This document shows, one piece after another, positions 31,707-60,317 of a DNA stretch of 64,000 nucleotides. Position numbers and translations under genes: made by a program. The stretch spans positions 6,386,001-6,450,000 of the forward strand of contig OX387606.1 of the NCBI GenBank assembly GCA_947568835.1. The letters are read 5' to 3'. The notes below the pieces were generated by a model that made no database searches, was not told where the DNA came from, and saw only the letters and a list, made by a program, of their open reading frames with translations. Numbering within the stretch: position 1 is the first letter of the stretch; every line of letters starts with the position of its first letter. This DNA comes from Protonemura montana (taxonomy: Eukaryota; Arthropoda; Insecta; Plecoptera; Nemouridae).

Positions 31707-31750
31707 TTAGCTTACCTCAAGGGACCGTCTTACCAGGTAAGGGTAGCTAA
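31707..31750. repeat. Inverted repeat TTAGC..ACCT/AGGT..GCTAA
   Basis: TTAGCTTACCT (31707-31717) and AGGTAAGGGTAGCTAA (31735-31750) are inverted copies with a small bulge. Both arms contain donor-like GGTAAG when read on one strand or the other. Confidence 0.4.
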
Positions 31751-34700
31751 AGGGCGGATATAATAACATGCTAGCACCTCAATCCGAGTGGTGTAATGAA
31801 GAAGGCATAAGCCGAGAGTCAAACTGATCCTTCTATCGTTTCGAATCGATAACGATGATGATTTTCTCGTTTCAATGTGTATTTTCTGTAAAGCAATTTT
31901 CTTATAAGTAGACATAGCACACAATTTGAGCGTAATGGTAATCGACTCGACGAGGTGACTTGGGTTGTTCGAGTCACACATTAGAAATGCAAATTGTCGA
32001 CTCGGTCGTGAGATGCGGCATAGAAGAAGCCCGATGCTATGTGTGGGTGAAACCTCCTTGGTACGCTGGTAAACTTATCACGGCGTGATCTAAGGCGTGA
32101 GAGCTCGCAGGACTGTTTACCGCGCGCAATACCTGTGTACAAGAAGTGTACCTCCTTTTGCCTACACATGTGGTATCGTGTCGAGGCGAGGAGTGCTGTT
32201 AGGTGTATCTCTTCTCTGCGTTTGACCTGTGTTTGTTACAAAAGCTTAGTTCAGATTAAAGGCACATTACTTGATAACTCCCTGGTCTAGTTATCGGTGG
32301 GTTGTTTGGCTCGATTTTAACGGCGTGAGAGCGAGTGCATACAACACTCAACGATGGAATCGAAAATATGGATAACGCAGTCCAATACTGTGCTTTTTCT
32401 GACAACACGAAGATGATTCGCTTGAAAATGTAGCTTAACTCGTAAGCATGTCTAGCCCGTGAGAGAAGATACCAGCTCAAGGACTGCCTTCCCAGTGGCT
32501 ACCGACTCATGAATGAAATTTCAGTTAAGATTTTAGTGGCGGAATTGCTTATTATATCTGCAAAATAATTATCAAAATTGTTATAATAAGCATCAAATTC
32601 CTTACTTGTCGAAAAACAAAAGATCTTGGCTCTGTAAAAGCTGCAGAGTAAAATCAAAATGGCGGACAACAGCGGATATGATTTGTTGTGTTTTTTCTTA
32701 TGTCAGTTGGCCCGCATGTCATCCCAAAACGACCGGTGGCGCCCCTACCGGAATAGTATGTTCTCACTTTGAACGAAGTACAAGCACGTGAATAACCCCT
32801 TCGCTATCAAGTTGAAATGGAAACGAGTTGGCTATTGAGCCCTCCGAAGAGTGAGGTTATGAGATTCATTAGCTGCCTTTTGCCGGAAACCGCGTGATTT
32901 CACTGGGCCATGCGCAGGTAATTAATAGATCATTAACACCTCATTAGCAGTACCGCCATGTTGATGGCCATGATGATGTCATTATGGTGAGATAGACTCA
33001 TTTCACTCATGCATATAAAGTTGCATGATGATAGCGATCTGACATTTTTTTAGAGCAAATCTAACAGATTCGAGATGGATTTTCTTGGCTAAATGATGGC
33101 CCACGGTCTGTATGCGATTACCGAGAGCATATGAATCAGGCCAACTATCTCCAAATTGCACGCATCAAAAAAAGTTTTGAAATAATCATGTTTGGGAAGA
33201 GGTATGCCATGATATGACAAAGGGGAAATTATCCACCTCACGACTTCCAGTGAAGACATAAGTTACTCATATCTTAATGTGTGAACTCAGCGAATACGAT
33301 ACGTACACGGTGAATGTATAATACTGTTAATTGACGGCAATATTTTTAATTAGACAATATATACCCTTGCCGGTTATGAGTATCACTCCTGTATAAATTT
33401 GGTTTAAAAAGTAAATTATAATGACTTCTTATATCGTATACAATGAATAGATAGCTCAAGGCTTGTGTGACGAAATAATATTGTTCACATTTTCTATAGA
33501 AAAAAAAAATGACTTGGTTCTTCTTTGACTTTAATTAGTACGGTTGTTCGACTTTGATCAAGATTGCAAGCGTCATCATAAATGCTAATGATGATGGCGC
33601 AAGGAAGGACAGTCAGCGACATGGAACTAAGGGCTTCGGAATCACTCATTGTCGACTCGGATGGAAACTGATTTGCATATTAGCTTTATTAGTCGGGCAA
33701 CAAATAATAATAATAGCGTTTCGCATTGCACTTGGTCGTCACGGGGAGACAGGCGACACGAGGGGTGCACAAAGTAAGAAAAACATGCGAGACCCCAGCT
33801 ACTCTTGTATACGCACTAGTATAGACACCGGCTTTTGAAACTTCTTTCCTTGGCCAAATTATCAACGTGATAATTCCCATGAGAGACAAAATATGTAAAA
33901 TCGCTGGTAAATTCAAAAGTTAATTGTTCCCATTCTCTAGGACGACTTTTAATTACAAAGTAATTACCCGTTGGGCCCGCGAGAATGTCCCATGAGGCCG
34001 GCTCGCCGAATCCGGTCGTGGGTTTCGTCACTCGGACGCTAAAGATCTCGCCTGTTCCAGCGGTCAAGTCACCGCACTGGGGACCCTCTTTGAACGCGCC
34101 CTTAGGCAGCCAGCACCACACGAAGAACACATCGATGCCACCGCGATCCACGATAGTGCGCCCGAGATGACATCAGTGCGGAACCGAATCACAATTATAT
34201 CAATTAGGAGGAAAAGCCGCGACGTTCACGTTGCAATAGCATTACCACGCGGCCATTGTCTCGAATAAAGAAGGCAGGCCGATCGTAATGATAGTAATCC
34301 GAGCTTAATCAACGCGCCTGGATGTTTGTCTTGTTCCGAGAAGGCAGTGTCGCTCTCAGCGCGACCCACATGTCAGCCCAGGAGACACAGGACGGTATTT
34401 TCCTGCACGGACCGGTCAACACTTCTTCGACGTACCTATACACACAGAACACGCGGTGACTACCTATCAGAATTTTAATTAATTTTTAATTTTTTGCTCC
34501 TTTTAGCCGGAGAGACGTTTTAATATGTCTTTGATGACTATTTTTTCTCGAGACCTATTTGGTTTTGATTGCATACAAAGGCGAAGGACACTGTAGACAA
34601 ATAACTGTCTCGCTTCGTTCCATTATGTTGCTGATACTTTCCGAATTGGACCGAGGGGAAATAATTAGGTCTGGTTGACACGTAGCAGTAGTACAGGATG

Positions 34701-36728
34701 TCATTATATTCTGTGTTTCGAATTCTATATAGTTACCTGAATATCAACAGCGGCCACTAAGACATTATCCTGGCGCGGCGCGACGCGATTCATCCATTGG
34801 CAAAGAACCGAAGGAAATAAGGACCATGAAAATGATTACCGTTGTAGTACACCGTGAAAACTACACACCTGTCCTCCCCTGCGCTTCCCCTCGTGACTAA
34901 CTCTGCAGCTACCCTTGTCTTTTTATTGATATATTTGTGTCTCTCCATCCTTCTCCATACCAGTCAATAATTTACCTTGTCCAATGTATACTCTATCCTT
35001 TGTTATGCAGACAGCAAAGATATACCATAATTTTTATTATTACTCGACCAAGCAGCCGCGCGGAGCGGCAAGACGTTCTTTGCACGTCCAATACCGCGAC
35101 CCAAGAACACAACCATTGCTATTACATCACACAATATTAATAATAATTCCATATACTGCATACAAACACCACCACAGAATATAACAAGGTATTGAAATAG
35201 GCCTTCCCACTTTGGTGTCATTGCCATTATATTTCATTGTTTATCTCGCTTTATAATCATCTGCCCCCTCTGTCTTTCTCTCTCCCTCTCGCGCCTTCAT
35301 CGTGTTGATGCCATGTCCCCGCCATCGCAGCACGCTTGTCCCCTATATCTAAATCTTGCCACCCGTGGCCAAATCATTTCCATATCAATGTATCTTCACA
35401 GCAACCCCTTTTCACCTCGACTGGCCTTGTCAACATATTGCGATGCCTTATCTGGCCACGAGTAAATTAATAGACGACGCCGCTGCGGTGCCTATAATAG
35501 CTGAGAACGGGCGCAGTTGCTCAGCGCTGTATGCTTCGCTTTTCTTTGCTAAGGGGCTATTATTATTCACTCTATTGTCGTCTTCAAAGACCTCATGAAG
35601 TGTCTCTAATTTAATATGGTCAAACTGAAACGCGTGGTGTTTAAGTCAACTGTTTGGACTTTTGGAGTGATAACAGACTACGCATTGTGATTGTATAGAG
35701 GGTAATTTGTCGGGTTTCGTGTACGACAACATGGAGACGAGCTGGTTGGGGGTTGTTTTTTCAAGTGATTCATGTCAGATTTCCCGGCGCTATCATTTGA
35801 CACAAGCTATGGTTAAAGTTTGAGGGACATCGTTTTACGTTTGTCGAGCCTTAATGTTTCTTTCCGTCGCGATGTGCTAGACTTTGAAGAGGTTAATTAA
35901 AACGAAATTCATTTGGCTTCAAGGCAGAAAAAAAACAGACTCGAAGTAAATGTCTGGCCACTCCCATGTTCGAATAGTATGGTATGTATCGTATGATATT
36001 AGCATTATTATTTATTTTAGTAACCAGGCATATATGGCCGTTATACCTGGAAGAGCAAATGTTTACTGTGTTTAGCACTGGATGAGTTCGTCTAATAAAC
36101 ATGCCCCAAGCATAAGGAGAGTCCATTCAGTCTCAAAGAAAATCCCTCTCTGGTTGTGAACCGAGGACCGGAGGCTGGCCACTCGCTAGTCAATATTTAC
36201 ACGCTGAATATTGCTAAAGCGTGCTGCGGAGAGGCACAGCACGGGATGCTATGTACGCTGCGTCGGATTACACAGCTCCTCTGTTTAACGAACCGATATA
36301 TTGTATAATCAACCGCAGATTCTGACCAATAAGCAAAAGGAAGGGTTGGAAGAACGAAGATCTACGAAGCAATGTGTAGAAAAAGTTCTGATTCTCCTGA
36401 GGCATTGCTCTGTTACGATATTATGTCTGGGAGATAACTGCTGGCTTATGCATCAGTAACCGCTTGCCAGGATACTGGCGTGATCTAAAAATTGATTCAT
36501 CATTTAATTTATACAATTGAGAATGAAGAGTGAAAAACAGTGATAGAAGATAAAAGTTGACAGTTTAATTAGATTGATTCTTGGTACGCGATATAAAAAA
36601 AACGCACGTAAAAAACACATACGTGGCCCAAGAACTTATTGGAGGAGGAACCCGCAGTGAAGCCAACAATATTAAAGCTAAAACAAAAGAAATTCCATTA
36701 AGGAAGCCGGCAAACAATGATCAATTAA

Positions 36729-36770
36729 AAGAATGAAGAGCAATTGTTAGAAATCTGTCTCTTCATTCTT
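36729..36770. repeat. Perfect 12-base-stem hairpin
   Basis: AAGAATGAAGAG (36729-36740) and CTCTTCATTCTT (36759-36770) are perfectly complementary around an 18-base loop. A further direct copy of GAATGAAGAG lies about 200 bases away, near 36523. The stem is shorter than a typical animal microRNA precursor. Confidence 0.6.
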
Positions 36771-39700
36771 GCAGGCGTCCAAGTTCTTAGAAATCAAGCG
36801 CTTAAACAGCGTCGGTCGATGCAAATTTTGAAATAATCTCGTCAATAAATAAATCATTGCATTGCGTTGCAGCCGGACACAATAATGAGTACGTACGACA
36901 CTCCTACCTGGTCGTTATTGCCAAACTGACTTTGACACCGGGTTTGCCGTGGAGATCTCGATGCAGATAGTGCACTGGTCGCGTTGTGAAACCCATCGCA
37001 AACGACCACGAGGTAATTGCTTTCACCTTGAACGTGCTAGGGTTCGGTAGAAGATCGTCGCCCATTCGAGTCCGTTCAGTGTTATATTTTCCGATATCCA
37101 ATGTTATCGACACATGCCCTACGGGAGTTGCTGATGTTAATTTGCTGTAATTAACCGAGTCAGCAGGGAGATGTCGATCTATTGACATCGTCATCAGTCC
37201 TGCACGACCAGGGAATTCGCCGGAAGTTCCGGTCGGACCGACTAACGTAGCCCATTTAGGACAATTACAAATGTGAATTATTGATTTGCTGATTTTAGAT
37301 ATGACTTCAAATCAAAATCGGACCATTCGCTTGACACATTGAGAGAGTTTACAATAGTTTTGAGTGTGCCTTTGTTTTGGAATAGAGAACGATGACTGAG
37401 GAAAAGTTTGGCTTTCAAGAAGGCGGTTGGAGATGTCAGGCTGATTGAGAGCTTGTCGTCGGCGCAAGGGAAATAACTTGATTGTTTGAAGTTAGGTCCG
37501 GGGGATGATGTTGATGGCACAAGCCAGGTGGCATGCGAGACCTTCGCCCGATGGCTGTTGCATTTGAAATAATTTACCTTTCTCGACAATCGGACGAGAC
37601 GATTCTGATTTATTTAACGTTTTATTTTTTTGCTGTCCGTACAGTCCGATGCACCTTTCTGTTATTGCGTGCGGCCGAAAATGTTTTAACCATGTCATAA
37701 TATCCCTGAAATGGAACAACGAAATTGCGAAACTTATGCTATGTCCACCGAAATGCGATAAAGCTCATGGCGAATAGTTATATTACCTTTAATTTTCGCT
37801 ATCTTTGTAAAATCAAGAAATTTTTAACTGAGCATGAGTGAGATAGTCGCATATATAAGAAACAATTCTGAGCCGACGAGCCAGAAAACACTAAAATAAT
37901 TTTAATAAATTAACTAAACAATGTGTGTGTGATAGCCAGCTGGGGGCTTGCGCACAAGGCAGATGAACTTCAACAAAGAAAGCTCACGCACAAACCAGAC
38001 ATAAAGGGGTACGCACAATAAAAGATGGCGGGGGCAAACACGCACGCGCTTACATTGTGCAAACAATGTCGATTTTTCTCAACTAATAAAATAATTAAGC
38101 GTCCCGACGGATATTGGCATACACCTAGTTAATTAAAGATTCCCCCCCGCTCACGAGAAGAATTTTTTGGGGCTTCTACCCACGCATTGGAAAAAAAGAT
38201 TCCGGCTTCCGAAATATTTGGTCGACGAATAAATTGGTGAAAGAAATGAGATTTTTTTTAGCAAGGCTTCACCAATGAATTCACATCGTGCATAAAAAAA
38301 AAACGCCCATATCTTTGCGATCGAATGGTTGATTCTCGGATGGCCGAGCACGTAGATGCACACCAGTGTACTTCGTATTAAAAGGCAGCCAACAATTACG
38401 ACGAGAGTGCACGTGGATTAGAGGCGGCCTGCGTTGACCCCAACGTTGCGGATGACGGTACAGAGTGGGTGGCTTATGCAAGGGGTGCAGATGACCATGT
38501 CAGCTTGCCGAGATTAAACTCATCCGAGCCGAACGGCCTCTAATGTTTTGCGCCCGTACACAAATGAGTCAGTTATTAACCCCATGCCATGTTGTTATGG
38601 GCCTGCAGAGCTCGCGTTTTCCGTATTGCGGGGCTGAGATGGAAAAATTGAGCCATTAGTGCGGACCAATATTCGATGTGATGCAAGCAATCTTTGCGTT
38701 GCTTTACAAACACTGGTCTATCTGGAGGATGGAGAGCTGAGTTCCTAAGATTTGTGGCGAGGGACGGAAGGGAATATTCATTTTTATGTTCTTAATATCT
38801 TTTCTAGAGACACTTAAATATTCACTGTTTTATTATGGGCTTTTACTAGATCAACACATGGATGATGCAATACATCTTCACTGATTAAAATACTATAAAA
38901 ATTTCAACACCATAACACTGGCAGGATTAAGTTTGTAATCGTGATATTGGCATCATGCACCATAATTATATTCGTCCTATTTTTTTGTTGCCAATTTCAA
39001 AGTACGTAGTCAAGTTTACTCAATCGATATTGTACCTTTTAGTAGAGCCGCTCTAGAGGAAATCAGAAAGTGCCAAAGTGAATTATCTGGCGTACTTTTA
39101 ACATGAAGTTGCAATTCGTCTTTTTCGCTCTAAGCCACTTCACAATTTCGGTTTTGTTCATCGTGATCGCATTCTCCAACACTAGCTAAACTTCGATTTA
39201 TCTTGAGAAATAATGGCGCTTTGACGCTCTAATTTATTAAGAAAAAAGTGTGAGAGCTTTTACAGTCTTAATCAGGAAAACAGCGTTGTTTGGAAGCTTT
39301 TACACTTTGAGGTCACTTATAGCAACAGGGGGCTCTTTGTGCAAACCTCAATCATTCTCAGTATGAAATGGAGTGTAGTTAAAAATGACCGAACGACTGC
39401 CCACAAGTAGCAATATAACGTGAACGTAATTTCGAGCTCCTAGGACTCGGCAATATTGTTACTATCAAGATCGTGTTGCATTCATGATGATACCTTTCGT
39501 GTACTTCGCTATCTCACTTTCACCTACGTGCCGGGAGGGATAATTCCATACTCTCGTCTTGCTCTTTTTATATCGCGTATCAAAAATAATCGCGCGCGTC
39601 CTCACTGCTAGCAGTGGACATTATTAAGGATCATTATTGTCATGTAGAAGCAGGAGTTTTCGACCTTCTGTGCTCGACGTGCCTTGTAATTGTTGGATTG

Positions 39701-40794
39701 TTGGATGTGGGGAGAAAATTAGGGAAGGGTTGTGGTCGGAGCTAGAGAGAGTGAAACATAGTCATTATTTTTATGTGATGCTGGGAGAAGTAAATTTAGA
39801 GTATGGTCGCTTTGTATACTCACTTTCCGATACAGAAACGTAAGACGAAAAAGTGATTTATCACGATTTCTGCATGGATATACTTAAAAATTGTTTCATA
39901 TCGAAACAGACAAACATGAAGTACTTCTTGGTCTTGACTTGAGTACAATTGTAATTCTCATTTATCATATTTGGCAGTGTACGCCATCTGGCAATTAGTT
40001 GATTGACATTTTTTTTGTTTCCACATGTTTAAAGTTCCCATGCAATTGCGACAGGAGCATACACATATGCTAAGCCGTCTGATGTCGCCCCGACATTTCG
40101 TTGGGGATGAAACGGCTTTCCATTCCATAAACGCCGCGTGAAGATTGTTTGCCAGACAGAAATAGAAAATACTGTCGAATAAGTTGCGGGATGTATGCTG
40201 AGTAGTTTTTTTGGTCATGTGTGGTTTTTGGCTCATGCTCCTTGAAAATCTACCATTTTTATAAAAAGACATTGTGTCTGCCAAGACAAAACATTTAGGT
40301 ATTTGTGAATATTTTATTTATAAAAAAAAAATATTTTTGGCAAATTGTTATACTATTATATCCCATTTATGTTAGATAATGGAACTAAAATTTGGTTGCA
40401 AATGGCATCCAATAAAATGGCGTGATTAGTGAAAGAGAAGAATATAAAGGAGAGAATAAATACTATAATAAAGACAATTACCCCAAAGCAAACAATACAT
40501 TGATTCAATTTCATTAAAACTCACTGTTAATTTTATAAAAATCGTTTCATGTTTTCCCGCTCCACAAGTTTGTCATTTAATAAGAATAAATGTAATCAAA
40601 AGTAATTAAAAATTACAAATACAAAAAAAAGTCAAAGCAGACATCGAATTTTACATGCCATTCCGTTATTGCCACCTCCAGCAATTCAATTGACAACTGC
40701 ACTGTTTGAAATGTCACTTCTGTGTGGAACGCGTCTCTCCTTAGGGGCTCTCACTGGGACGCTCTGACACTGACGTGCCCCCACCCCAAATATA

Positions 40795-40820
40795 GGGGGG
40801 GGGGGGGGGGGGGGGGGGGG
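40795..40820. repeat. Homopolymer run of 26 G
   Basis: An uninterrupted run of 26 G on the plus strand follows CCCCCACCCCAAATATA. It can form a G-quadruplex on the plus strand, or a hairpin with the nearby C-rich stretch. Length may be unstable or mis-assembled. Confidence 0.9.
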
Positions 40821-43800
40821 TGACGCATCATAAAACGTATCGGTGTAGTCTCGAAACAAGGCGCGCCGTCAATGCCCCTCACCGTATTAACATTTCAAAT
40901 TGGGCGACGCCAACCGTTTTTGAAGGGCGCCTAAGGGACCTCGGAGGCACAATTGGAGACGACACATTATCATTTTTGGCAAAACATGCAAAAGACCTCG
41001 GCACTGAAGTGAAAGCAGTTTCCATATTCTAGAGAAATTCGAGGAAATTGACTCAGAAAATGTACGGGCCTGGTTGTCAAGAAACTTACTGTGGCTGTTG
41101 ACGAAATTAATTCACGTATCAATTTAAGTCTTTTCTTCTCTCCCGTTTGATTATGTGTGGTGCTGCTAGGCATGGGATAAATTGGCATGCGTAGCTTTCT
41201 ATCAAGGGTTGTGCTCGGATGGGGTTGCACTAAGGGGTTGATTATTTGATTGGGTTATTTTCCCTGCGGGAAGACTTCGGGACCCCATGCTCATAACCAA
41301 TTCCTTCAATCTTGTCGATTGCGAAGCCAGAGCTGTCTGTGACACAGGATATGCGGTGTCATACTCGACTAAAAATTAAATTACTCGAAATGTGTTTCGC
41401 GGGAAAGCAATTTACAAATTATTGGTGACTATCCTCCAATTTAAAGGACCCCGTATTTTTTTTTCACAAAGGGCATATGCATTAAGGGAGGGTGCACGGA
41501 GACCCTGCATTAAAACAAGGGACACAGACCTCATTTCAAACGCAAACGGAAACTGTGTGCATATAAAAGTTTCTTTTTATGACACGCCAACCAATCTTAA
41601 CCTTCTCAAAATCTCGGCCATGGAATAAATTCACCCAAGACGATGTAATTAAAATATAGGCACTTTTGTATCACTGACAAAAACTAATTACTCTTTTCCG
41701 AGTCTGCTACGCTCATTGTTGTTATATCGTGACATGTCTACTATTATTAGCTTTTAATATTATTCAGAAGTTTTCAACTTAAAGTATTTTTTATCATGCG
41801 CTTTGACGAAGTAATGACTGGAAGCCAGCTGACGCTCTATCGTCGATTCAATTTTCACTTCATTTAACCTCACTGAAATGGTGTAGTAGACACCGACCAC
41901 TATTTTGTTTAATTTTGTTGTACGCCTCGAGTCTTATTTAAAGATAGTCATTATCACTGTGTTGTCACTCTATTAAAAACTGTTTGAAAAGCTTTATATC
42001 AATTTCATTTCTATTAGTGAATATAGACCACATCTAATAGATTTCGATTGCGTTTAACCTTTGTGTTTGGCTAGGTCGCATGTCATCATGTATAGTGGCA
42101 GCTTACCTCAGGATAGGTCGTCTGCAGGATAAACCTTGCCCGAGGCCTTATTTAGCTGCCATGCCCGATGATTATGGGCCCTCCTGCATCTGGCGCCCAG
42201 CATGGCAAATGTCCATGGCTATCGTTTACCCATTGTTATAATTTGTTCATGTTTTACAATGGATTACCACGAGAGCTAGGCTTTTATTTAATAGTTTTGC
42301 GGTTTTTTTTTAAGCACATGCGAGCAAACAGTCGCTGCGGAACTAGAATACAAAAAAAACGCGATCCAACCTTATTTGATATTTGTATATAAATATTAAA
42401 CGAAAACACAGGTAAACCTGCATAAACTTAACATTTTCGATAGATTATCAAAACTCATAAATGCCCCTGAGTATGAGCAAAATTTCAAAGTGTTATTTCT
42501 AAAAAAAAAAATGTTCTGTTCTCATCCTTGGAAATATGCAAGATACCTGCAACGCACGTTTAATTTACCATGCACGTCTCCCACGGCAGCTTGTCACACA
42601 TCTAACTATTCGTCTTGGGGAAGATTTATCTCCAATCCAGCACCCGTCCCGACTCCGGCTCTGGAGCCGCATGATAGTCCAACCACCGATCCATGCAAGT
42701 CACCTCGGCGTGAATAGCGATCACTTGTCTTTCAACTGTCATAATGACAACATGTTTCCGCCATCCAGCGAGCCGGAGCTGCAAGTTTCATGAATAATTC
42801 GGGACATATTTACTGTCAAAGCGGAAACTCGAGTGACATGGCGCGACTTTGAGAGGAGGGGAGGGGGTCGCCTCCAGTGGTGGCGTTTGCCGTGAAATGC
42901 CCGGCGTATGTATCATGAGCCCAGTAAGAGTCATGGGTGCATGCTGGCGCGCTTTACGAGGGAAACATTGCTGCGTGAGTGAATAATGGAAAAGGGGTAG
43001 TCGAAAATTTTATGTTCTCGGTGCAAAAATGCGTGAACGTGGAAATGTCATTGTGGCGTGGTTGGAAAATAAAATAAAATATCTGCGAATAAATAATTTC
43101 GGGTGTGAATTCTTGTTTGTTTAAATTTGAAAAGCGGAGGAACTTAGTAAGTGTGGCTTCGGCGATGCAAAGATTGTGTATGTTTACTCGTTTAACGTCT
43201 TGATTGAGACCTGGCACTTGATGCTGGAAGCCTAGATTTTCACAAAAGATGAACTTCGTTCTGCACCGCAGGAAAATGAGTGCACGAGGCTTTAAAAAAA
43301 ATCCAACTGCACAGAGGAAACTGCTCGTGGTTCTTGGTATCAAATCAACAGATGTAGCGAATGAACTGCAAGTCTCATCTGTTCACGTGTCTTTCTATAT
43401 TGGGCGAGCGGCTTTATTATCTTCAAGGGTGCTTCCCGAATCACTCCTATTCAGCGTAAGGTTCCCCATAGAAGACGTCAGTCGCGGTGCACCTTTATTT
43501 TGATCTTGTTATCCACATCTCATTCAATTCTATTGAAATACTTGGAAATATGAAATTCTGAAGTAAGTACTTGATTAGGGGTTGGAATATGACGTAGAAA
43601 AAATATGCTACGCGAAGAGATTCTGCAGCTAGTTTTTGTTTGTCCGATGAATGTGAAAAGAGTGGGCACATGTTTGTTTTGCTGATTACGTTCGCAGTGT
43701 AGTCAAATTTTAATTATGGCTCAACATGATTTTTTTATTCGAGTCGTCTTTTTTGCCATGCAGATTTTTGTGATGTGTGTGGTTTGTGATTAGGCCCGCG

Positions 43801-45644
43801 CGTTCTGCGGCGCTGGACCTTCTGTTGTTCGGCCTCGCGTCCAGTTTTTCCCCAGGATTGCTTTTATGTGCGGCCACAGAGCGCATGGAGCGTCGGTTCC
43901 GCCAAATCTACGAGTGCTGTTTGCGCTCTGTCGGGTTTTTACTTTTTTTTTTAATACTTCAGGTCTTCATTCACGATTCAGAAACTGTGTGCTTCGTGGT
44001 TTAATTTGACCGAAAACAGACTCCTTCGGGAGCTCAAAAGCCGAGCGCATACAGCGCCATATATATATGTGCTGAGGGTATATAGCCCCAAACAAACTTT
44101 AGCCCAAGTAAGTTAGGATCTCAAGCTAGAGCAGAGCAAGGAAAAGGTGCTGCTATCGCCAATTTGAACTGAAAATGATGCGTCAGTGACTTGATTTCTG
44201 AATCTGACAAATTACGGGGGATTTCGTGAGCGAGTCATCACCGTCCTGCTTGTTTGTGGGACATTATTTGGAACCCCCTGCAGCACTGCGATGCTAATTT
44301 CACCTCGTGTACTAGTGAAGGTGGTCTTTATATGGCCGCATCTTATTTCACCCGGCATAAGAATGTGGTTACCCACAAGAAGAATGTGTCAATGCGATTT
44401 CCAAGAACCTTTCTGACGATTTAATAGCCGTTAGTTGGGCACAAGAATGCATGTTAATCGAGTTTAATTTCGTCAAGGTGGTATAAAAGTGTTTGCGCGG
44501 CTGCTCGCCATGGTTCTTCTGTGTCCAGCTCATAAATGCAAAGGTGTTTGGGCTGTCGGTCTGCCGCATCTTTGATCTAGCCGCCCATTTCTCTGAAATA
44601 AGTTAATCTTGTGTAACCATCGTTTCGTCACGCAAAAACGATGACAAAATGGTGACGAGAACACGCCTGATTGGTTGTTTTTGGGGGACGATATGACGTT
44701 TTTATTATTTCAATCGTGAGGTACGCTTTGACTTTAGGTGTATAAAGGCATAAATTGGCTGTCTTCCGATGAATTCACGACAATTTCACGGATTTTGGCC
44801 AAAAAAATCGATTTAAATCTGTTTCGTAAAGAAAACAAATATCCTTATCAAAATGATTGACAACACAGAAGTAGACAATGAACTTTTCAAAGACATCAAA
44901 GAAAGTGACTGAATGGAGAGGAGCGAATTTCACTTCGCGGTCATACTAGATCTCGAGTCTTCGACACTGCCAGAGGTGCAAAGAAAACAATATGAGCATG
45001 ATTCGATGGTCTGAGAGTGTCACATGTTTTATCTGCAATGAGTGTCCTCCTAGCGATGCAGTAAGTGAGCACATGTCGTCAGTTGAGCTCATTACGACGC
45101 CTATTCTGGACGATGATACGGCCAAAAGCGTCCCGCTATGGCAGCTAGCTTGGTCGGCAGGGCCAAACCTTCGACAGCCAGGGTCTGACTGACTGCATTA
45201 GAGCTCTGTTCTTTCAGAAGCCCGCAACACCGACACTCGATGACTTGACACATTTGCAACAGAAGCCATCATTGCATTCACATGACTGCCATCCGAGTCA
45301 GCCCTTTCAGATCGAGCCCACAGCCTCCTTTGAAATGCCATCGCGGGCCCGGTCGATTCGGTCGATTCCCGCATGATTAACTATCCATTGCGGAAAGGTA
45401 GATACTAGATACAATCGAACAATATTCTAATGACGGCGACAACGCGGCGAAAAAGTGTTTATGGAGACTTGATTAGGGGCTCTAAAAAAGATGATTTGGG
45501 CAGGAGGAAAAAAAGGCAACATTAATAATCGTAATATTATTGAGAAGGAGGCGGTAAAGAGGACCCGTCACCGTGTTAACATGCATTGAAACTTACCGGG
45601 CCGCAGTGACGATTGCGGGTAACAAGTTGAAAGAAGCGAAACCG

Positions 45645-45681
45645 ACTTACCTAGAAAAAAGAAGACAACGCACAACATTAG
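45645..45681 (-). promoter_or_regulatory. Candidate recursive-splicing ratchet point in the 38.6-kb intron
   Basis: On the minus strand (the sense strand of the gene) a branch-like CTAAT with its A at 45678 is followed by a pyrimidine tract (TCTTCTTTTTTCTAG) ending at 45651. A consensus donor, GTAAGTCGG, begins immediately at 45650. An acceptor joined directly to a donor is the zero-length-exon structure used in recursive splicing of very long introns, described in Drosophila. It would divide the intron into steps of 16,938 and 21,619 bases. This rests on sequence only. Confidence 0.5.
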
Positions 45682-46029
45682 AATTGTAAAATAGTATGAC
45701 ATAAGAGTTTTTTGGTCGCAGGGCTACACACTTAACAGATAATTTTAAAGCCATTTGTGTGGTATCTGATCACAATTTGATGCAGGAATTTTTAAAGTTG
45801 GTGGTAGGAAAGACACCATAATAACAGAGGCGGACGCTGCAAAGACCAGCGCGGGGAGAAGGGAAAGAGACCGGGGAACAAACTATTAAAGGTGACATTT
45901 CAAAGGTAGCGACAAAAAGGTATTATGTATTTTTTTATTGAGATCGATATTTTTTAAGTGGAAAGATGACTTTAAGTGTCCCCTCAGGGCTGTCTTTTTC
46001 CTCGCTGCCACGTATACACAATCACTCGG

Positions 46030-46085
46030 TCTCTTTCGATCTCTTTGAATCTCGCTCCGTCTCTCTTTCCATCTCTCGGCTGAGA
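46030..46085. repeat. CT-rich (GAGA-type) low-complexity tract
   Basis: A run of TCTCTTTC, GATCTCTTTG, AATCTCGC and CGTCTCTC-type units reads as repeated GAGA motifs on the minus strand. Such tracts bind GAGA-factor-like proteins in insects; its role here is unknown. Confidence 0.45.
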
Positions 46086-47804
46086 TCGCTCCCTCCGGAC
46101 GCAATCTGCTACCCTCGTTATTGCGTCTTTGCGCGTTGACTTTTTTATCCGACCCATCCCTGCGATGCCATCGAGCCGGGACAGTGGGGGATGACATTCT
46201 CTCCTCCCGCATAGTGGCACACTTGTTGAATGCCAACCAGAGAGCCTGTCGTGGAAGTAGAGGCAATCAGGTGGCCGATCGCTCGTCTCGTAAACTTAAC
46301 ACAACCGTGCAAAGTTCAAATTCATAACCGCTCGCCTCTCAAAGATCGCACGGTTTCCTGCTCGTGTCAAACGCACTCACATTTTTTTTCTTTCCAATCG
46401 AAACGTTTTACGAAGCACATGGGATCTCTATTTTGTTATTGATTACATTTTTCTCTCACGACTGATGGCCATGCGATTCCCAGTGACCACTTGACGCCAA
46501 TGGTAATCACCGCTGCGGGCGACGCCGCAAGCGCTTTCTAAGATTGAGGTTATGGGACAACATCGTGATGGGAAACTCGGCCCAGGAATCCAACGCATTT
46601 TAACTTATTGCAGGCGTGACAAAGATATGTTACTCTTGTAAAAAAAGACACGGAGGAGTATCGCGAGAGGACGATATATCGCGTGGAACGGCTATGGTTA
46701 TTTATGAGCATAAGTAGATTTCTATTGATTGGCTAAAACATTAAACACTCGATTGACATACAAAGTATAAATGGATGTTCTGACAGTAAAATTGTGCTAA
46801 TTTTTAATGCAACGTCTGGCCTCGAGCTCGTAGCTACAAAAAGTGGCAGTGTTTCACACGAAACCGACTGGAAACTCGCATAATCAGCTTTCGCATTACC
46901 CATGGCCGGTGCTTGAAAGTGCACAGGTATGGAGATAGTATATATATATTTTAGATACCTCCACCACGCGAGTTATCACAGGTATTTGCAATACGAGACA
47001 AAATCAGAGAATCCAATTTGTCCAAGATGATCACCGACTGCCATGCTGGTACACAGCTCGGTACGTGCGCGAGGTACCACGACCATGAGAACAATTCCTG
47101 TCCATAAGCAATCATCGCAGCAATGATGATCATTATCTACGGTTCTTGGAAAACATTGGTCCTAATCACACTCTCAATTATTGGGGACATGGCTGCAAGA
47201 AGTGGTAAGGGAGATGACATTCCGAGACCCACGTACGATCATGCAGTAGTGAGTGAGGAAGATGGCTAGGCGGTGATAATCTCACGCTTCAATGGTAATA
47301 GCATGTCCAGGGTTCGGAGGTCTTCTGTCTGCAGAGCTACGATATGGACCATGTCTTGTTACTGCACGTCCAGCAGTGGACGGCCATTGTTCGATAGCAC
47401 TGAGATATCAGAGGCTCAGAAAAAGAAATAACGATTTGGTCGCGAGATTTGCTAGGTACAAAAAGAATAAGATGTGTCGATGGAGCTGCCGGGTTGATAT
47501 TTAAGCTTGGGCAGTGTGCCTAATGATTTAATTGCTTAAACAGTAGAAAATCAAAGTCAGCGGCTGAAATTGAAGCATTAGACTATTTCAAAACAACAGT
47601 CATCAGCATCAAATGAATCTAGTCTGACTAATTCAATGTTGTATAAAACAAACTTTAATATTAGACTTTGGCAAAGCAAAGCAATTTTTTCCTAGTTCAA
47701 AAAGGGAAATTGTTGGCCCTTAGGGGTTGTTATATCCATTTGAGAACAATGTTCAACTATAAAGCTATTGTGGATCTCTCTCTCTCTTGCTATATACGTA
47801 TATA

Positions 47805-50240
47805 TAGAACACGAAACTATACGAGCACGATGATGTAGCACAGATGGATGAAACCCTGTGATCGCTCATCTAGAAAATGATCAAGTATGCAGATGATTAA
47901 ATTTCAACATAATTGTAACAGAAACCAAACCGCCGCCGTAGCCGCCTGCCATGGGAACGCTACCGGGAACACGAATGACGCCCTCAGGAGCCGCGTGCAG
48001 ATCCCAGCCTTGCTCCCGTGTATCGTATTTGAGCCCAAGCCGAGCCGCCCAAGCCTGTTATGTGCAGCGATACCTTGACTTTGCTAATTGCAATGGGACG
48101 CTCACATTAGGAACTCACTCATGTTGTCGGGAGTAGGTACGTGGTGGGACCGGGGGTTATCGCGGTGAAGGCTTTGTCGTGGCATGCCGTTTGGTGGAGT
48201 AATGCGCCATGGAATTATCATTCGGCGAATAATTATAAATTGAAATTGCCGCTGTGAAAAGATTCGAAATCATCGTGAGAGTCATAAGTTAGCGTGCACA
48301 AAAGAAATTCGGAGTTTATTTAATTTTCGAGTTTCTTTCTTGCGAGAGTCCGTTTTTGAGGACTTGGGACTTCACGGGTAGGCGAACCGAAAATGTATTG
48401 AAAATAATAATAAAATACGAGATTGTTACATGGAATTATAAAGAAAAATGATGCAGATAATAGAATTATTTTTCAAATCTTGTATCAATAGAAAAATGGT
48501 TCTGTTGGGTCGTTTAAGTATCGTTGTGGGGATGTATAGGATGATGCGGAACAGAATAGCGGAGACTGTCTCATTTTTGAGAGCCCTTCTGTCATACTTT
48601 AAAATTGAATGCAGCCGAAAAAAACCTTCTGGCAAAATTCACGAAGCAGAAAATGTTACCAACATCGTTTGCCACGCTGCAGTGGCTATTTTATACGATC
48701 ACATCTTTGAAATATAGTTTTTAAAATTGAAAATATAAGCCATTGTGTGTTAGAAAATGTGATAGTACTTGATTCAATTCTATATTATTTTCGTGATGTC
48801 CATCCTCTACCTGCGTCGATTTAATTCACCGAGATGGCTGAACTATATTCACCTGTTGATCTCCTAGGCATTCATAAAACCGATAAAAAATGTTCAACCC
48901 AGATCGTAAAAAAAAATAAGCAGACCGCATTGAGGCATTAGCTTCTTTTTCCTCGTTCGTACACATGGCTCTTGCTAATTATCTACGAAACGACATTTTC
49001 TGATGATTGGAAGAAAGGACACTACTCATCTCGGATGATGAATCTCAAGAAACATGTCTTTCGATTGGCTAACAAGCGATGTTCTAACCAATCGTAATCA
49101 AGCTTACATATCCATTTACCAATGTCATGATGGTGGGACAAAGACGACATTGTTCCTACTGGCTGAAACAACGAAGGCCATTCTTGTCGCTCATCTACCA
49201 ACATATCTGAAGCACGCTTTCTGCGCGCTCCACTACGGTGCCTTCCCTCAACATCAATTACATAATCTTATCGCTAATAACTTCTAATTCACCTATAATT
49301 AAAATTAATACAATTTAGTTATAATCTGTTGAAAAGTAGACCATTGTGTGTGCGTAATTCCCTAGTGCTATGTGAAGAGAGTTACCGCTGAAAGTAATAC
49401 CCAGACTTGGTGGTAACTTGTTACCCTTGAAAAAGAATAGGTTATGAATAAATTATGTTAATGCAGGTAACATAATTAGGAATTGTAATTTGCTTCCTCG
49501 CGATGGATGGATCGTTGGCGTATGTGCAACTGTTTTATTGTCTTTATTCGCATGAGTTATTAGATGCTATTTCCAAGCGAATTGACAATTATATGAAGCG
49601 AAAAACTGTGTACGTCATTGGTGAATCACATTTTAAAATAAAAAAATGCGGACAATTTATCACACGCAGATATCAAAGAGCCGTACGTGCAACCTGCAGC
49701 GAGTAAATTGTTTTAAATAAAAGAAATCTAGTGTCATTATTGAGCTACGCTCTGCTCGTGTCAATAGGGCAGGAGGTTTGCAACAATAGCAACGGCGTCG
49801 ACTACGAACGTAGGGCGTCGCGGCGCTCTATTTGCGAGCAAAACCACGAAAAGACGTCGAACAAAAGGACGCCATTCAATGTGTTCGCGTTGTACACACG
49901 AGATTGCGAGACAGCGCCGAGATTTTCCACGTTTGTTTTAATAACAACGAAGTGCAGACAAGGGTCCGCGAGTTCGTAGACAATGGCAGCGAAAAACGAC
50001 AACAATAGTTACTTATTTGTACAGTACATGTATGTAGTAACACAGGAGACGCTATATTTGAAAATGTGACCATGTGTATGTTTTAGCCAGCGAAACGGGC
50101 GCAATTCATTTCGACCAGCGACACTTTTCGTGCCATGCCTAAACGCCTAAGTTATGCATGCAATTAATTTAGCATAATTTGCTTGAGACCGCGCAGTTGT
50201 GCCTCCGCTCCTGCGCGCTTGTCGCGTTGGTCTGATTACT
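47805..50240. other. AT-rich intronic stretch, nothing recognised
   Basis: No open frame with splice-site support, no repeat of note and no RNA gene was seen. Open frames of 60-90 codons occur on both strands at the background rate. Confidence 0.5.
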
Positions 50241-50247
50241 AAGTTAA

Positions 50248-50267
50248 TCAATCACAGCAGTGATTGA
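50248..50267. promoter_or_regulatory. Palindromic TGATTGA (PBC/Exd-like) site pair
   Basis: TCAATCAC and GTGATTGA form a perfect 8-base inverted repeat around AGCA, following TTAA. TGATTGA resembles the core bound by Exd/Pbx homeoproteins. Regulatory function is inferred from the motif. Confidence 0.3.
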
Positions 50268-50649
50268 GTATAGAGTATAATAAGTAAAATAAGTTCTTTT
50301 TATCGTTTGACTTAATAAAATATTTTAAAGCTTATCGCTCAATCATATGTCGCTAATTATTGCTCGACTCCAAGATGACACTCACATTTGCACGGTAATT
50401 TTTCTTAATATATATTTTTTTTTTTGTAAAAAGGGACATTATTTTTCAGCCAATTGCAAAAAGTGCTTCGTTATTGCATTTAAGTACATTAGCAATGAGT
50501 CGCCTCGTTTTTGGAAATGCTTATCAAAGCATCACACATGGAAGTCAAAGAATTAAAAAATGAACGCCGTAGAGATTTTTCACAACTTCGTTAACAGCAA
50601 TCACATAGAAGGAATATGTTTTCTGTCTAGTTCATAACGCATTTGCTTG

Positions 50650-50960
50650 TACATGTATAATGATGACGGTGGTGGCGGTGGCGGTGGCGGCGGCGGTGCA
50701 TTAGAATGTAAATTGGCCGCGGTTGACGGATGACCACCGCGCCGTGGACGGCCAAGTGACCCGGGGCGCCTGGCCAGCCAGGGATGGGCCCCGTCCCGAG
50801 CCACTCGACGGAGGACAATGCTCATTTAGACATGGCGCGAGCATCATCGGTCCACAACGTCGTCCCGGGGGCCAGTCGAAGCCACGCCACTTTATTAAAG
50901 ACATGTCGGCCCGTTAAAACAAAACCAAGATATGCTGGACGACCGGCCACCATCACATTT
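50650..50960. other. GC-rich island D with GGTGGC microsatellite
   Basis: A block of about 300 GC-rich bases in the giant intron starts with an imperfect GGTGGC/GGCGGC tandem (50667-50698) and continues with CpG-rich, GGCC-rich sequence. It resembles islands A and B in composition. No coding exon is supported on either strand. Confidence 0.5.
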
Positions 50961-53900
50961 GTCCTTGGTGACTTGGCACACACATCAGAACCACCATTAA
51001 AGGACAAGTTATTTTTTTTTCGTAATAATTTTTAAAACTAACCTTAACGACTGGCATGCATAGTAATTTTGGAGAGATAAATCATATTTTCTGGTCTTCA
51101 CCCATGTAATTCGTCGGTGGTGGGTATTGTAGCCTTAGAGCGGTGTTGTCTTGACTCTTGTTTCTAGAGCGAGCGACCAATATGTGTATGGCGCGGGACG
51201 GCCGATGTCCGATTTCATATGTGTCGATGAGCCTGAGATGATAAGCGGCATGTCGAGTTATCGATGAACTTTCGTAATCCTGTCACCACGTCAAACTTGT
51301 CTCCTTGACGTAGTATCGCTCGCGGATGGGTTGACCTTTTGACATGGAACGACTTGACTTTTCATTGAGTCTTGATATAAAAAGTGTTTCAATATTTCAA
51401 AGACTGTCGTCAGGCGCCGACAATTGAACTTAACGTCGGTTTGATCGTTTCTGTGCTGTTGACCGAGGGTATCAAAATGATAACCGGATAGGTTATACAT
51501 TTTTTGCAAAAATTTGGTTACTGGCACGAAAATAAGCGTATAGGTGATGCCAAAAAAATAGTAAGAAAATCACGTAAAATCTAGGCATGCATAACAGAAC
51601 TCGGTTTTATCATTTATCAATCAAGCCGTATTTAGTGAATACATATCGCAAACTGGGTGAAGGTTAGCAACGTTAAAAACTAGTCGGATCAGTTGATCGG
51701 TTTAATCATGATTATTATCCATATTTTATAAGAACACAACGTGGAGAGAGGACAATCAGAAAACTGAATGAACATGCGCATTTCGCTAAACATTCTCTCA
51801 TTTACGCATGCTCGTTGTAAACGTGCCAAGTTGGCGATTATACCGGATCGATGACATATAGTGCGACCTTTATTTGAAAATAATTAACCGTTAATTGGCC
51901 TAAAGCGTTCATTTTATTGTTACATAAAAATGGCATAAAGAATCTATAAAGATTATAGATAAAAAACCAACTGTTACATATAGTTTTAGATTTTAAATTT
52001 GCCACGCTCACGTTAAATCGATCATTTTTTGCGATAACCAAAATATAATTTAATTTTAATGACTATTTAAACATTTGTAACACGAGCAGAACCGAGATTA
52101 ACATAAGTTCGAAGAGCTATTATCATTAATATTCCGTCGTTTGGCTGGAGATCCGTCTACGGGACAGAGCATAATTACGCGACGGCAGCGACGGTTCATT
52201 TTGGCGGCGCCAATTTTTCACCTGTCATCTTCACTGCCGCGTCTCTGCTCATCTTGTGTCGGTACCTAGTTCACCAAGCGGTCAACGGATAATCACAACG
52301 ATCGAGAAACTGTTTGTGTCGTTCAAAACACCGAAACATACAGAATTTCTGACAGCTACGCCCTATTTTTTTCAAGAAATTTCACTACAATTGGCGTCCA
52401 GGTGTGGGATTGACTTTCCATGTGTGATTTCACAAACCTACTACACTAAAAAATATATAAATTCATGTATATTATGGCACAGTCATTGCTATGATATTTT
52501 TTCAGGTAGTCATTTTAATTTATTCTTAATTCAATATAAATTATTTTCACGATTTATGACATGCTTTTTAACTACCGCTAGTTGTTAGTCCAATTATAAT
52601 AATTTAAAAATATTTACATATTAAATTAATAACTTCCTCTGGCTAAGGTTTTGAAAGTGTTATCGTGCTACACGTTATATTTTTGTCACAACTTATTGTG
52701 GTTTCACATATTAAAATACAATGCGTGGCAAGCCATATTTTTTGCCTGTGACAAATAACATGCAGGCGACAAAAAGTTTAATTTTTTTCAATCAGATAAC
52801 ATTTCGGCACTTTGCTTGCACCTATCTTTTAATGGAAATCACTCTGGATGACCAAGTCACTTCTGTTGCAACCTCCTTCCTTAGGTGGACGCACAGCTTC
52901 TCGAGTCGACAGTTAGCAGTCAGCAAAGACCGCTATGGAGCCCTCTTCGCTAGCCTTTACCAACCTGTTCCAACTCGTAAGACCACTCTATCTAATTGTG
53001 TTCATGAAGAAATGTGAATGACAGATCGGGAATTGGAGAGCGTTGGGCTATCAGCCAATAGCGGAATGCTTTGGTCAAGTTACAAGTGTTCAATATTGAT
53101 GAGAGGGAGGGACCTAAAGGTACACACTGGATGCTGGTGTCAGATCAACACCGAGATATCTTCAATTTTAACCAGTGAGAACAATGAAGAAAGTGGTAGT
53201 AATCAATTTTTTTAATGGAAGCATCACATTTTATACTATCCATGATGGCGCCAGCTGCAACGTTTGACGTTGTTTCTAAACTATACATGGAAAGACTTTG
53301 AACATTTTTCTAGAATGTTTTATGGACTATTGTTAAGTCACTTGTGTTTGCATGCAACGAACATTACAATATTCTTTCAAATATTTATGGTATAAATATT
53401 CGAAGTAAGACTCAAATCTTTCCATCTTGAGATGTCTTTCTACGTAGAGATATATTCAAGAGACTATCCTTCTCATCTTACACAAAATGAACGAACATTA
53501 TTATAACCAAAGCCTTGGGGAAATTTTGACTCTGTTAATTTTTCTGTTTGATCGTTTAGACTAACCCTTAAAGACTAATTACGGCAGGATCTCTGTTACA
53601 TCATCAAGCTCCTAAAACAAGCCGAGTCAGGAGTAATATATAAAGTTAGAAGATTTTTAGGCCCCTCGAGGGCATTTCTTTGTCTGTATTCTTGAGACTC
53701 TAGTGAAAGAGCTAAGCTCTGCAGTGTTAAAAAGGGAGGAGGCATCTTTGTAATTGCCATTGAGAACTCTAAGGACAAATACATCCTCGAGGGATGAAAA
53801 TGTATATCTACTCTTCTTTTAGGTGAAGAAAGGGGTACATTATCAAGCTATCTTCATAAGTAAAGCGTAAGTCTGCATAAAAGAACATCAGAAATGTGTG

Positions 53901-55484
53901 CAAGACTTCTGAATACGGCTCCTCCATCGCCGCCAAGGTATTTTTCCCCCGTACTTCCCCGGGTGGGATTTTCGCCTCGTCAAAGTTTGACTTGACAACG
54001 AGTTTTTGCAAAGTTTTCCATCTCTATAACCTAGTCAAGTTGATTTAGCATAAGATTGAAACCAATTAAAATATTACGATGCCAGCGAAGCGAACGTGGT
54101 CTTAAGGTATAATGAAATATTATGCAAGGAACCCTGTGCCAATTATCAACTAATTGATCACTTTACGACTTAACCCGTCATTAATTGCCATCGTCTTCCG
54201 AGTGAGCGATATTGAAGAACGTGGATTTTTTCTTCTAATTTAAAAAAACCAACTTTATTTTCCTCTCTTTTGAATTGGTAAAATCTTGTTGCTTTCAAAA
54301 TACCGGTAATAGCGACCCACGCATTTAATATGAAGTACGTACGACAGGGTTTTACGTTGATTTTTTTTTAAATTATTAATGGTAATTAGCGTAGTTAGCC
54401 AGCGAACGTTGAAGTCTGAATTTCGATTCGAACCGATCTGCTATAGAGGTGAGATGCACTTTTTAGTTCGGATCCGATCCGATATTTGACGGATAGTCTC
54501 GTTTGGGGCCGATGCTTTCTGCGAACGTTTGATAGAACTAGAATCAGACTAAAGTTCCCTCCGAACAAGGGTGGCATCCATTATCGGGTAGCCGCGCGCG
54601 GTTCATCTTCATCGACGGTGAGGGGGGGCAGAGCAAAGCGGAAACGCAAACACTCAACTAGCTATGTACGCTATGTTGCAAGAGTTTAATGAAATAGTAT
54701 AGGCCTATGCTCCCTGTGGACGAAATTATGATAAGTCTGGGGATAAAGCGACATTGTTTATAAGGTTACAAGTTATTTGCAAACTGAATCTCTGTGTTTG
54801 TTTTTGAGAAGCAGTGGCATCTAATTGTTTGCTCAAGATGAGGAGATTATAATATTATTATTTTAGGGGGAAGGTTCTCTAATGGAAAGCAAGTATATAT
54901 AAATAATGGGCCCGGTGCAACTTGTGAGCATACTGTGTGTGTTCGTGTGTGTGTTGTTTTTTTTTTGCTTTTAAATGATAACAGATTGCCAATTAGAAGA
55001 CAAAATCTCAAATATATTTGCATAAAACAAGTCAAGTTCAAATATTCTCCAACGATTTTAATTAATATCGCGAGGCTGTGGCGCCTTTTCTCATTCTCCT
55101 TCTCTTTTTCTTGGCTTGACCAGTTAACTTAGAAACAAAGTTACTTTTTTGGCTAAAGAAAACTCGCAGTTCAATCAAATTTAAGTTTGATGTGTATTCC
55201 AACAAAATATCGAACCCCTCCCAAGGATGCTCAATGGTTCAGAATGATGAGCACTATGAAATATTAACCCCGCTAATGAAGTCAAGACAGGCAGCAACCC
55301 CTTCTCAGTTGCTTAGCAACAATAGAGAATAATCTATTGACCATCCCCTAACAGAAATGACGTCACACAATATTCATATTGTCTACCTGATGAAATGCTA
55401 ATCTTATGATGTTGTAGTCAAGGAGACTGAACGCTGGAACGACCGAGTCGACGACACAGCCTCGGCGATGTCAGGGAAGATGAG

Positions 55485-55523
55485 AAGGGGTGAGCGGGAG
55501 AAGGGGTGCGCGGCGAAGGGGTG
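55485..55523. repeat. Short tandem repeat around AAGGGGTG
   Basis: Three copies of AAGGGGTG start at 55485, 55501 and 55516, spaced 15-16 bases apart. Confidence 0.6.
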
Positions 55524-56027
55524 TTGTTCTAACTTGCTAATTATTCAGCGATGCCATACGCCATCATAATATTATGGGGAGAAATTTCAAAACCGAGAGA
55601 GAGACATTCTACTCTTGTACCGGGTGATTCGCGACTAGCGGCACAAGACACAAGCAGTCTGGCAAACCAAGGAAACTTATATCAACGCTGTTTTGATTTT
55701 TCCACAGGTTGTACCACTGTAAATTAGGGTTGCCGGAGAAAAATACCCATAATTTTAGAGATGGAGGTTAGAATTTGTCAATTCAACAAGTTATTGAACT
55801 CTCTGAAATTTGTCTCAATTCTTAATTAATCCCGCGGTTCAAATTCTCGGAGCAACAATTACACCGAGCAGCGAGGGGTGATAATAATTAGTATGCATGA
55901 CTGTGACATTGCTTGTAAAACAATTAGCGCTCCTGACAACATGCTCGACTTAATTACGGTGTAATTGTCTTGTAATTATGCGACTTAGCGTCAATTCCGG
56001 CATGATAGGCGGGCGGGTTCGTTGTAT

Positions 56028-56132
56028 GACACTGGTAAAAGACACATTTTGTCAGTGTTATCTGACAAACAAACGTTTAACACGTTTTCATCACGCATAA
56101 GTGTGACTGTCATGTCGTGTCACTTTTTATGC
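56028..56132. repeat. Two adjacent imperfect hairpins
   Basis: ACACTG (56029-56034) pairs with CAGTGT (56053-56058). GCATAAGTGTGAC (56095-56107) pairs imperfectly with GTGTCACTTTTTATGC (56117-56132). They could be remnants of a foldback element. Confidence 0.3.
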
Positions 56133-57146
56133 CACGAATAAAACACTGGAGGCACGGCATTTTTCACAGGTGGAGGTGCCAGACTCAAGTCGTTTGGTAT
56201 TTTTTTTTTGGTTCGGCTAATTTTCTATTAAAATAAAGTGGTGTTGTTAGTCGTTAGTCCTTTCGGCTGTCACATTTCGTAATTTATTGTCCGCTGATAT
56301 CGATGTAGGATGTAATCGATTTGAAAAAACAACAAAATGTAATTGGCCTCGCTGACTTTTTGATCTTTGACACGGAATCGATGACGAATTTACAGTGTCA
56401 CCATGAAGCCATATCTATACTTAAGACGCGCTTCATAAATCATGTGTTTTTTTAACTGAGATTGATGTTTGTTTTTTAAGTGACGAATCTGGGAAATATT
56501 ATTTTCTCAAGTGGTTTGAAATACAGGTCAACAAATTCTTAAGATGCACCTTGTATTTTTTTTATTTTTTTTCTTAATAAGTGTACAGAAATATTACTCT
56601 TTGGAAAGCTAAGTCAAATGTCAGTACAGAACAAGAGCATATAGTGCATTCCCCATGTTTATGTCTGGATCAGATCGGTGAACTTCCTGTAGGAAAGTTC
56701 ATGGGTGGGCCATGTCTGTTCAATGTAACATACTCGTGACATGTGGAAGAAGTAAAAATGAATGCACGTAGTTAATTACTATTATGAAATAATTATCAGG
56801 TGCAAGCAATGATCCATTTAATTGATTTTTACTATAGTGGAGTTCAGGATTTCTTCGTCACAACCGCTTTTCAGTTTTAAACGAAAGCCATTTTCTTAGA
56901 TGGGGATGATATCCTCAAGTGCTCCTTATCTAATTTGACACATGCCAAAGAGTCATTATATATTATTTTCGGTGTAAATTAACACGCTTAACCTAATTTC
57001 GGGGATGGGTTTCTAACAAAAACGCACACTCTCTTCCTAACGAGACTCTGGAATATGTAGCCTGGTTGTCGGAACGCATCCTGTTTTGACGGCGCGGGCT
57101 AGTACTGTGTCTGCAAGCGTGTCACTGCCATGGCGGTCACGGCTGG

Positions 57147-57179
57147 CTGACACGGGACTGACACGGGACTGACACGAGC
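57147..57179. repeat. Three-copy 11-base tandem repeat
   Basis: Two exact copies of CTGACACGGGA are followed by a third, CTGACACGAGC. The surrounding 100 bases are GC-rich. Confidence 0.8.
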
Positions 57180-59546: not shown

Positions 59547-59576
59547 GGAAGTCGACGTACGATTCGGTCGACTTCC
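59547..59576. repeat. Perfect 10-base-stem hairpin GGAAGTCGAC/GTCGACTTCC
   Basis: The arms 59547-59556 and 59567-59576 are perfect inverted copies around a 10-base loop (GTACGATTCG). Each arm holds a GTCGAC palindrome. Confidence 0.6.
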
Positions 59577-60300
59577 TGACTTGTAAAGCAGCTAATGCCG
59601 GTTTTGCACTAGCGAGTGTGCTGGTAGTTGTGCCGGTAAGAGTATAGGGCCCATACGGATCGCATTTTGTCGAACGAAATTGTAGATATTTTGCATTCAA
59701 GATGGCTGTTATTATGAAGCAATTATTTACATAGCCATAGGAGGATCGTTCGAAAATTATGTTAGGCCATAAGCCCTCTGCAGTTCACCCCTGACGTTAC
59801 AGCTAACGAAAATGTAAAAATCTTTGTGCATTACATGTAGCTCTACTTATCACATGTTTAATTTTCTCGGACAAGAAACAATTTTTGACTCAAAAGATTC
59901 ACGATTTCAAGCACCAATAACGTATTACATTAAATAATAACCGAATGACGTGAACCAAACCCATCTCAAGTTACCTACAAGATTGTAAATTTGTAAAGTC
60001 GCTAAAGATAGAATCAAATTTAACACGATCGAGGTGGATTCTGGTCTGCGTCGGCCTCGGAGCTTGACGCATCTATGCGACGACGCCGCCTTGCTACATA
60101 CTGCAACAGAGTCTCGAGACGCCCCGCCGTGCCAAATCACCAGTTAATCAATCCCAAACGTTTGTTTCTCATTATAAAAATTTTAATAAAATGTTATTTA
60201 TGATTCGTCGCCCCTGTAATTCACACAACGCGCAGCGCACACAATGGGATGGCTTCAATGCTGACGAGTTAATTAAATTATATGGAAACATATCGACTTG

Positions 60301-60317
60301 ATATATATATATATATA
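60301..60317. repeat. AT dinucleotide microsatellite
   Basis: About 17 bases of uninterrupted AT repeat in AT-rich intronic DNA. Confidence 0.9.

Follow-up and report, generated by a model that had tools for sequence, protein, structure and literature searches.

The question raised by this locus is whether an acceptor and a donor that abut each other deep inside a very long intron form a genuine ratchet point for recursive splicing. All positions refer to the window, the whole 64,000-nt stretch of DNA that was analysed. The host gene lies on the minus strand, and the following parts of it frame the site.

62589..62691, minus strand: upstream coding exon of 103 nt, ending in phase 1, donor ATG/GTAAGTCAT, encoding 34 residues plus 1 nt
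62588-24032, minus strand: host intron of 38,557 nt, GTAAGT...TTGCAG (GTAAGTCATC...CTTGTTGCAG)
23796..24031, minus strand: downstream coding exon of 236 nt, reading ...DYARGYILQ, donor CAG/GTAAAC at 23795
15644..19279, minus strand: stop-to-stop frame that includes the host gene's large 3′ exon, with three C2H2-type finger pairs identified by eye; the frame extends upstream of the true exon start

Joined directly, 62691-62589 and 24031-23796 keep the reading frame and give ...WVPHALDKLG..., a reading without insert as in vertebrate basonuclins, and the host is presumably a basonuclin/disco-type gene. A Pfam search of the host gene gave one zf-C2H2 match, below threshold. Homologs of disco have 4 to 6 paired fingers, and human BNC1/2 correspond to disco/disco-r (PMC2889900); three finger pairs are given for BNC2 (PMC13304701). 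The joined N-terminal exons and the three finger pairs seen by eye, read with these two sources, thus point to a basonuclin/disco-type gene. A paralogue with a ratchet point of its own was considered and rejected, the best other genome match to the N-terminal exons having an E value of 0.44 (query one residue short). Elsewhere in the window, the plus strand holds a 175-aa open frame at 60973-61500 with a sub-threshold Pfam match to the DNA polymerase beta thumb (E 0.003), probably by chance, and two uninterrupted homopolymers, 33 C at 20444-20476 and 26 G at 40795-40820.

Within the intron, the site itself is made up of the following elements.

45681-45677, minus strand: branch-like CTAAT, read in the sequence
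45678, minus strand: presumed branch A, lying 27 nt from the final base of the acceptor AG
45651..45670, minus strand: polypyrimidine tract and acceptor CGTTGTCTTCTTTTTTCTAG, ending TTCTAG, with its AG at 45651
45642..45650, minus strand: ratchet-point donor GTAAGTCGG, abutting the acceptor

The minus-strand sequence across the site reads ...acaattCTAATgttgtgcgttgtcttcttttttctAG/GTAAGTCGGtttcgc..., with the AG/GT boundary between 45651 and 45650, and presents the juxtaposed (Y)nNYAG/GTAAGT acceptor and donor that characterise a ratchet point. It stands on the sense strand of a long intron (38,557 nt) whose flanking exons and frame match, and CTAAT starts 31 nt ahead of the GT, a normal branch distance. 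The sequence-only reading had described this succession of CTAAT, a pyrimidine tract running to TTCTAG and a donor, and both the coordinates and the sequence were confirmed on the minus strand. It had also placed the site mid-way in a 38.6-kb intron, which agrees with a position 44% along 62588-24032, and had called it the sole sense GTAAGT, among those it found, with an acceptor attached. Indeed, GTAAGT occurs six times on the sense strand of the intron, the intron's own donor included, and only the copy at 45650 is preceded by AG; on the antisense strand it occurs five times, never with AG ahead.

The strength of the site was measured with a position matrix with weights taken from general splice-site knowledge and not trained on this species; score thresholds were chosen in the course of the analysis, and p-values are descriptive. 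On this scale the composite site scored 20.8 bits (acceptor 11.9, donor 9.0), compared with 11.0 for the runner-up among the 108 AGGT sites of the sense intron and 13.1 for the top-scoring of 109 antisense sites. None of 300 dinucleotide shuffles reached 20.8, their maximum being 18.5. The acceptor ranked first among the 107 sense-intron acceptors scoring at least 6, and exceeded the true acceptors of the flanking exons (10.7 and 11.4). A search of the 258-Mb genome with the 301-nt region around the site, in which simple repeats and very common words are skipped, returned only the region itself; with this uniqueness, no Rfam family at threshold in the window and no tandem repeat at the site, a transposon origin was rejected.

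A chance juxtaposition of acceptor-like and donor-like sequence, unused in splicing, would draw on the many decoy sites that long introns contain (here 107 acceptors and 67 donors of at least 6 bits), and such sites occur on the complementary strand of bee introns at one quarter of their sense-strand frequency (PMC2773006). The shuffles and the next sense AG/GT, roughly 10 bits lower, argue against chance, and so do the sequence downstream of the site and the genome-wide counts, both given below.

Downstream of the ratchet-point donor lies a second donor at 45596, which the sequence-only reading overlooked.

45597..45650, minus strand: putative RS-exon of 54 nt, open in the gene frame, reading GKSVSLLSTCYPQSSLRP
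45588..45596, minus strand: RS-exon donor CCG/GTAAGTTTC (CCG/GTAAGT), 54 nt downstream

This CCG/GTAAGT closes a short exon in the manner of an RS-exon. It is the only donor of its score or better in the sense intron, or 0.003 per 120 nt, and the antisense strand of the intron also holds one donor of that score. For the chance reading, a strong donor 54 nt downstream would be an independent coincidence. Paired with the acceptor at 45651, it makes the best exon-like pair (25-200 nt) on either strand of the intron, at 22.9, the next pairs scoring 18.2 on the sense and 18.3 on the antisense strand. The second-best sense pair, at 41003-40883 on the minus strand of the window, spans 121 nt (TTTCACTTCAG ... 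ACG/GTGAGG) and is possibly an alternative exon or a decoy. The second donor also alters the earlier description of the site as a zero-length exon: the ratchet-point reading stands and gains the support of the RS-exon donor, and "zero-length" applies to the usual product. Most likely the splicing machinery recognises the site as an exon of 54 nt and re-splices it at its first bases, in line with the RS-exon model for Drosophila (PMC8605326).

Could the GTAAGT at 45650 instead close an upstream exon of 186 nt (45836-45651), with the pyrimidine tract as exonic sequence? A moderate acceptor does end at 45837, and with it the GTAAGT forms the third-best pair of the sense intron, which at 18.0 is 4.9 bits under the RS-exon pair. 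Such an exon would terminate in a branch, a pyrimidine tract and TAG, and it contains stop codons in all three frames, on which ground it was rejected; we regard it as hardly credible.

The 54-nt element could also be an ordinary or alternative cassette exon that begins with GTAAGT by chance and enters some mRNAs with no recursion. Its length is divisible by 3, its frame is open and its donor does not score below the regenerated one, all of which would suit such an exon. Frame preservation has a chance of 1/3, and among the RS-exon candidates in the genome 5 of 12 likewise have a length that is a multiple of 3; because of this proportion, it was not taken as evidence of coding. Across the joined flanking exons WVPHALDKLG is read with nothing inserted, and a perfect GTAAGT at the first base would be unexpected for an ordinary exon. 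With that GTAAGT in place, moreover, recursion would be possible anyway. We therefore consider a plain cassette exon improbable.

The motif and its downstream donor were also surveyed genome-wide, as a control. The survey covered the window's own 258-Mb genome (34 contigs), and loci were counted without intron annotation. The strict pattern Y10NYAGGTAAGT gave 23 matches, compared with 4 for the reversed pattern; its AC-for-AG version gave 1 match and the reversed control of that version 11, an excess over the pattern's own count which indicates that controls vary by several counts. The branch-containing pattern CTAAYN(9-24)Y5NYAGGTAAGT matched 19 times versus 4 reversed, and the near-exact window motif with one mismatch allowed 10 times versus 2 reversed. 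Loci of the one-mismatch motif were left out of the donor counts. The other two patterns have 7 loci in common, which were merged, giving a union of 35 loci from which no other row was dropped.

A donor of at least 8 bits lay 15-99 nt downstream of 14 of the 35 loci, compared with a mean of 1.72 and a largest value of 6 in other 100-nt bins, and of 0 of 35 in the antisense control. The branch-defined set showed the same feature (11 of 19, versus bins averaging 0.64 and not exceeding 3), as did a matrix-free count of G-GTRAGY at 15-104 nt (11/35 versus a mean of 0.52 and a largest value of 2), which became 10/34 with the window site excluded. Among the 23 loci picked irrespective of branch, 9 had YTAAY entirely within the stretch 30-16 nt ahead of the GT, the far bins having a mean of 1.02 and a maximum of 5. 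The 16 of 35 loci outside the CTAAY pattern showed little donor enrichment (3/16 at 8 bits versus 1.08; descriptive p 0.09), and that part of the list is thus probably mixed. In all, 21 of the 35 loci have no donor of 8 bits 15-99 nt downstream. One locus, L043, looks by eye like an ordinary exon end and was retained in every count.

The over-representation of the motif and its pairing with downstream donors count against chance at the window site as well. The chance reading was rejected on the results from the shuffles and the antisense strand, together with the reversed and AC-for-AG controls run across the genome, and we hold it to be very improbable.

Several individual loci of the survey may be noted on their own account. 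Near-perfect RS-exon donors occur at L031 (CAG/GTAAGT, 72 nt downstream), L012 (CAG/GTAAGT, 118 nt) and L023 (GAG/GTAAGT, 62 nt). Three pairs of motifs lie on the same strand: L012/L013 at C1:12046259 and 12061500 (plus strand), 15 kb apart; L031/L053 at C15:6799701 and 6851764 (minus strand), 52 kb apart; and L048/L049 at C13:5608925 and 5710111 (plus strand), 101 kb apart. The two motifs of such a pair might serve a single long intron or gene as consecutive ratchet points.

Taken on these results, the ratchet-point reading is supported as the best explanation of the locus. Judged by its sequence, the site is very probably real, and we think it highly likely that 45651/45650 acts as a ratchet point for recursive splicing of the intron, with a short RS-exon attached. 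What was read from the DNA directly comprises the motif with its position and strength, the downstream donor, the frame, and the genome-wide association of motif and donor; from these we infer use in RNA, the order of the steps, the donor that would win and conservation. The two segments that the model predicts to be removed recursively, with their computed lengths, are as follows.

45651..62588, minus strand: first predicted recursive segment, 16,938 nt
24032..45650, minus strand: second predicted recursive segment, 21,619 nt, acceptor CCCCTCTTGTTGCAG

In the proposed mechanism, the spliceosome would define the 54-nt exon 45650-45597 by its two strong splice sites, acceptor 45651 and donor 45596. 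From its donor at 62588, the upstream exon would then be joined to 45650 with loss of 16,938 nt, and the junction would rebuild a donor, CACATG/GTAAGTCGG. The regenerated donor would be spliced to 24032, taking out 21,619 nt with the RS-exon included. Since the RS-exon would leave with the second segment, the usual mRNA is predicted to carry no trace of it. Should the RS-exon donor win instead, 18 codons would be inserted in frame.

How well does this model fit what is described in flies? Single recursive sites there sit near intron midpoints, with which the position at 44% agrees, and 63-70% of fly introns longer than 40 kb carry a recursive site (PMC6110457); the present intron is a little shorter. 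Two observations speak against the model. Its segments of 16.9 and 21.6 kb exceed the 9-15 kb given as typical of fly recursive segments in PMC6110457, and the RS-exon donor slightly outscores the regenerated donor (11.1 versus 10.2), the reverse of the general pattern in PMC8605326. There, the regenerated donor of intronic ratchet points is generally the stronger one and the exon is generally out of frame.

The balance between these donors bears on the fate of the 54-nt exon. The RS-exon donor scored 11.1 and the regenerated donor ATG/GTAAGT 10.2, a small difference on a general matrix, and the 54-nt exon, open and a multiple of 3 in length, would place an insert GKSVSLLSTCYPQSSLRP between H and ALDKL. 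Mutants of Bx use the donor that is stronger (PMC8605326), so that donor competition would permit inclusion of the exon here, in the manner of the 51-nt Ubx microexons. In the same source the exon of hth is skipped although its ratchet donor is the weaker, and the ratchet donor is the stronger in seven of seven reporters of expressed RS-exons; for these reasons donor strength alone is not decisive. A regulated 54-nt microexon, its inclusion set by near-equal competition between the regenerated and the RS-exon donor, is an unlikely, though realistic, outcome. If true, a transcription factor of basonuclin/disco type would gain 18 residues (GKSVSLLSTCYPQSSLRP) directly behind its N-terminal cysteine-rich motif, in parallel to Ubx m1/m2.

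The closest known systems are those of Drosophila. In PMC8605326, a ratchet point heads a short cryptic RS-exon, variable in length and around 50 nt, which has to be recognised first and is later lost through use of the regenerated donor. The intronic ratchet points with cryptic RS-exons described there (kuz, Bx) share with the present site a joined acceptor and GTAAGT donor, a long intron, a developmental-type gene and an exon of about 50 nt with a downstream donor. Here, in contrast, the frame is kept and the RS-exon donor is not below the regenerated donor, and the case is known from sequence. The Ubx m1/m2 RS-exons, 51 nt each in the same source, resemble it in that they are short, keep the frame, start with a donor and sit within the long intron of a gene for a transcription factor; those microexons are expressed and ultraconserved, whereas the 54-nt exon is putative.

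Beyond flies, the RP-sites of bee, beetle and mosquito have the same composite motif, enriched in long insect introns (PMC2773006). The densities given there per 100 kb, for introns longer than 50 kb on the sense strand versus the complement, are 2.196 versus 0.101 in fly, 1.029 versus 0 in mosquito, 0.484 versus 0.122 in bee and 0.807 versus 0.101 in beetle. That work counted motifs in introns above 50 kb, whereas the present intron is 38.6 kb long and has an identified RS-exon donor. The literature searched held no paper with both "recursive splicing" and "basonuclin", and no RNA mapping of ratchet points was found in the accessible portions of the literature searched on recursive splicing in Apis mellifera or Tribolium. 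The phenomenon, two-step removal of long introns, is thus already known, and this site is very probably a new example of it.

As a candidate, the site has a complete anatomy of branch, acceptor, regenerating donor and RS-exon donor, and is clean and testable. Its near-equal donors and open frame make it a good locus for the question of donor competition. The genome-wide survey makes a modest but useful addition: the ratchet motifs of this genome carry downstream donors at the Drosophila spacing. Should the species prove to be no fly, this would point to an RS-exon mechanism that is not confined to flies.
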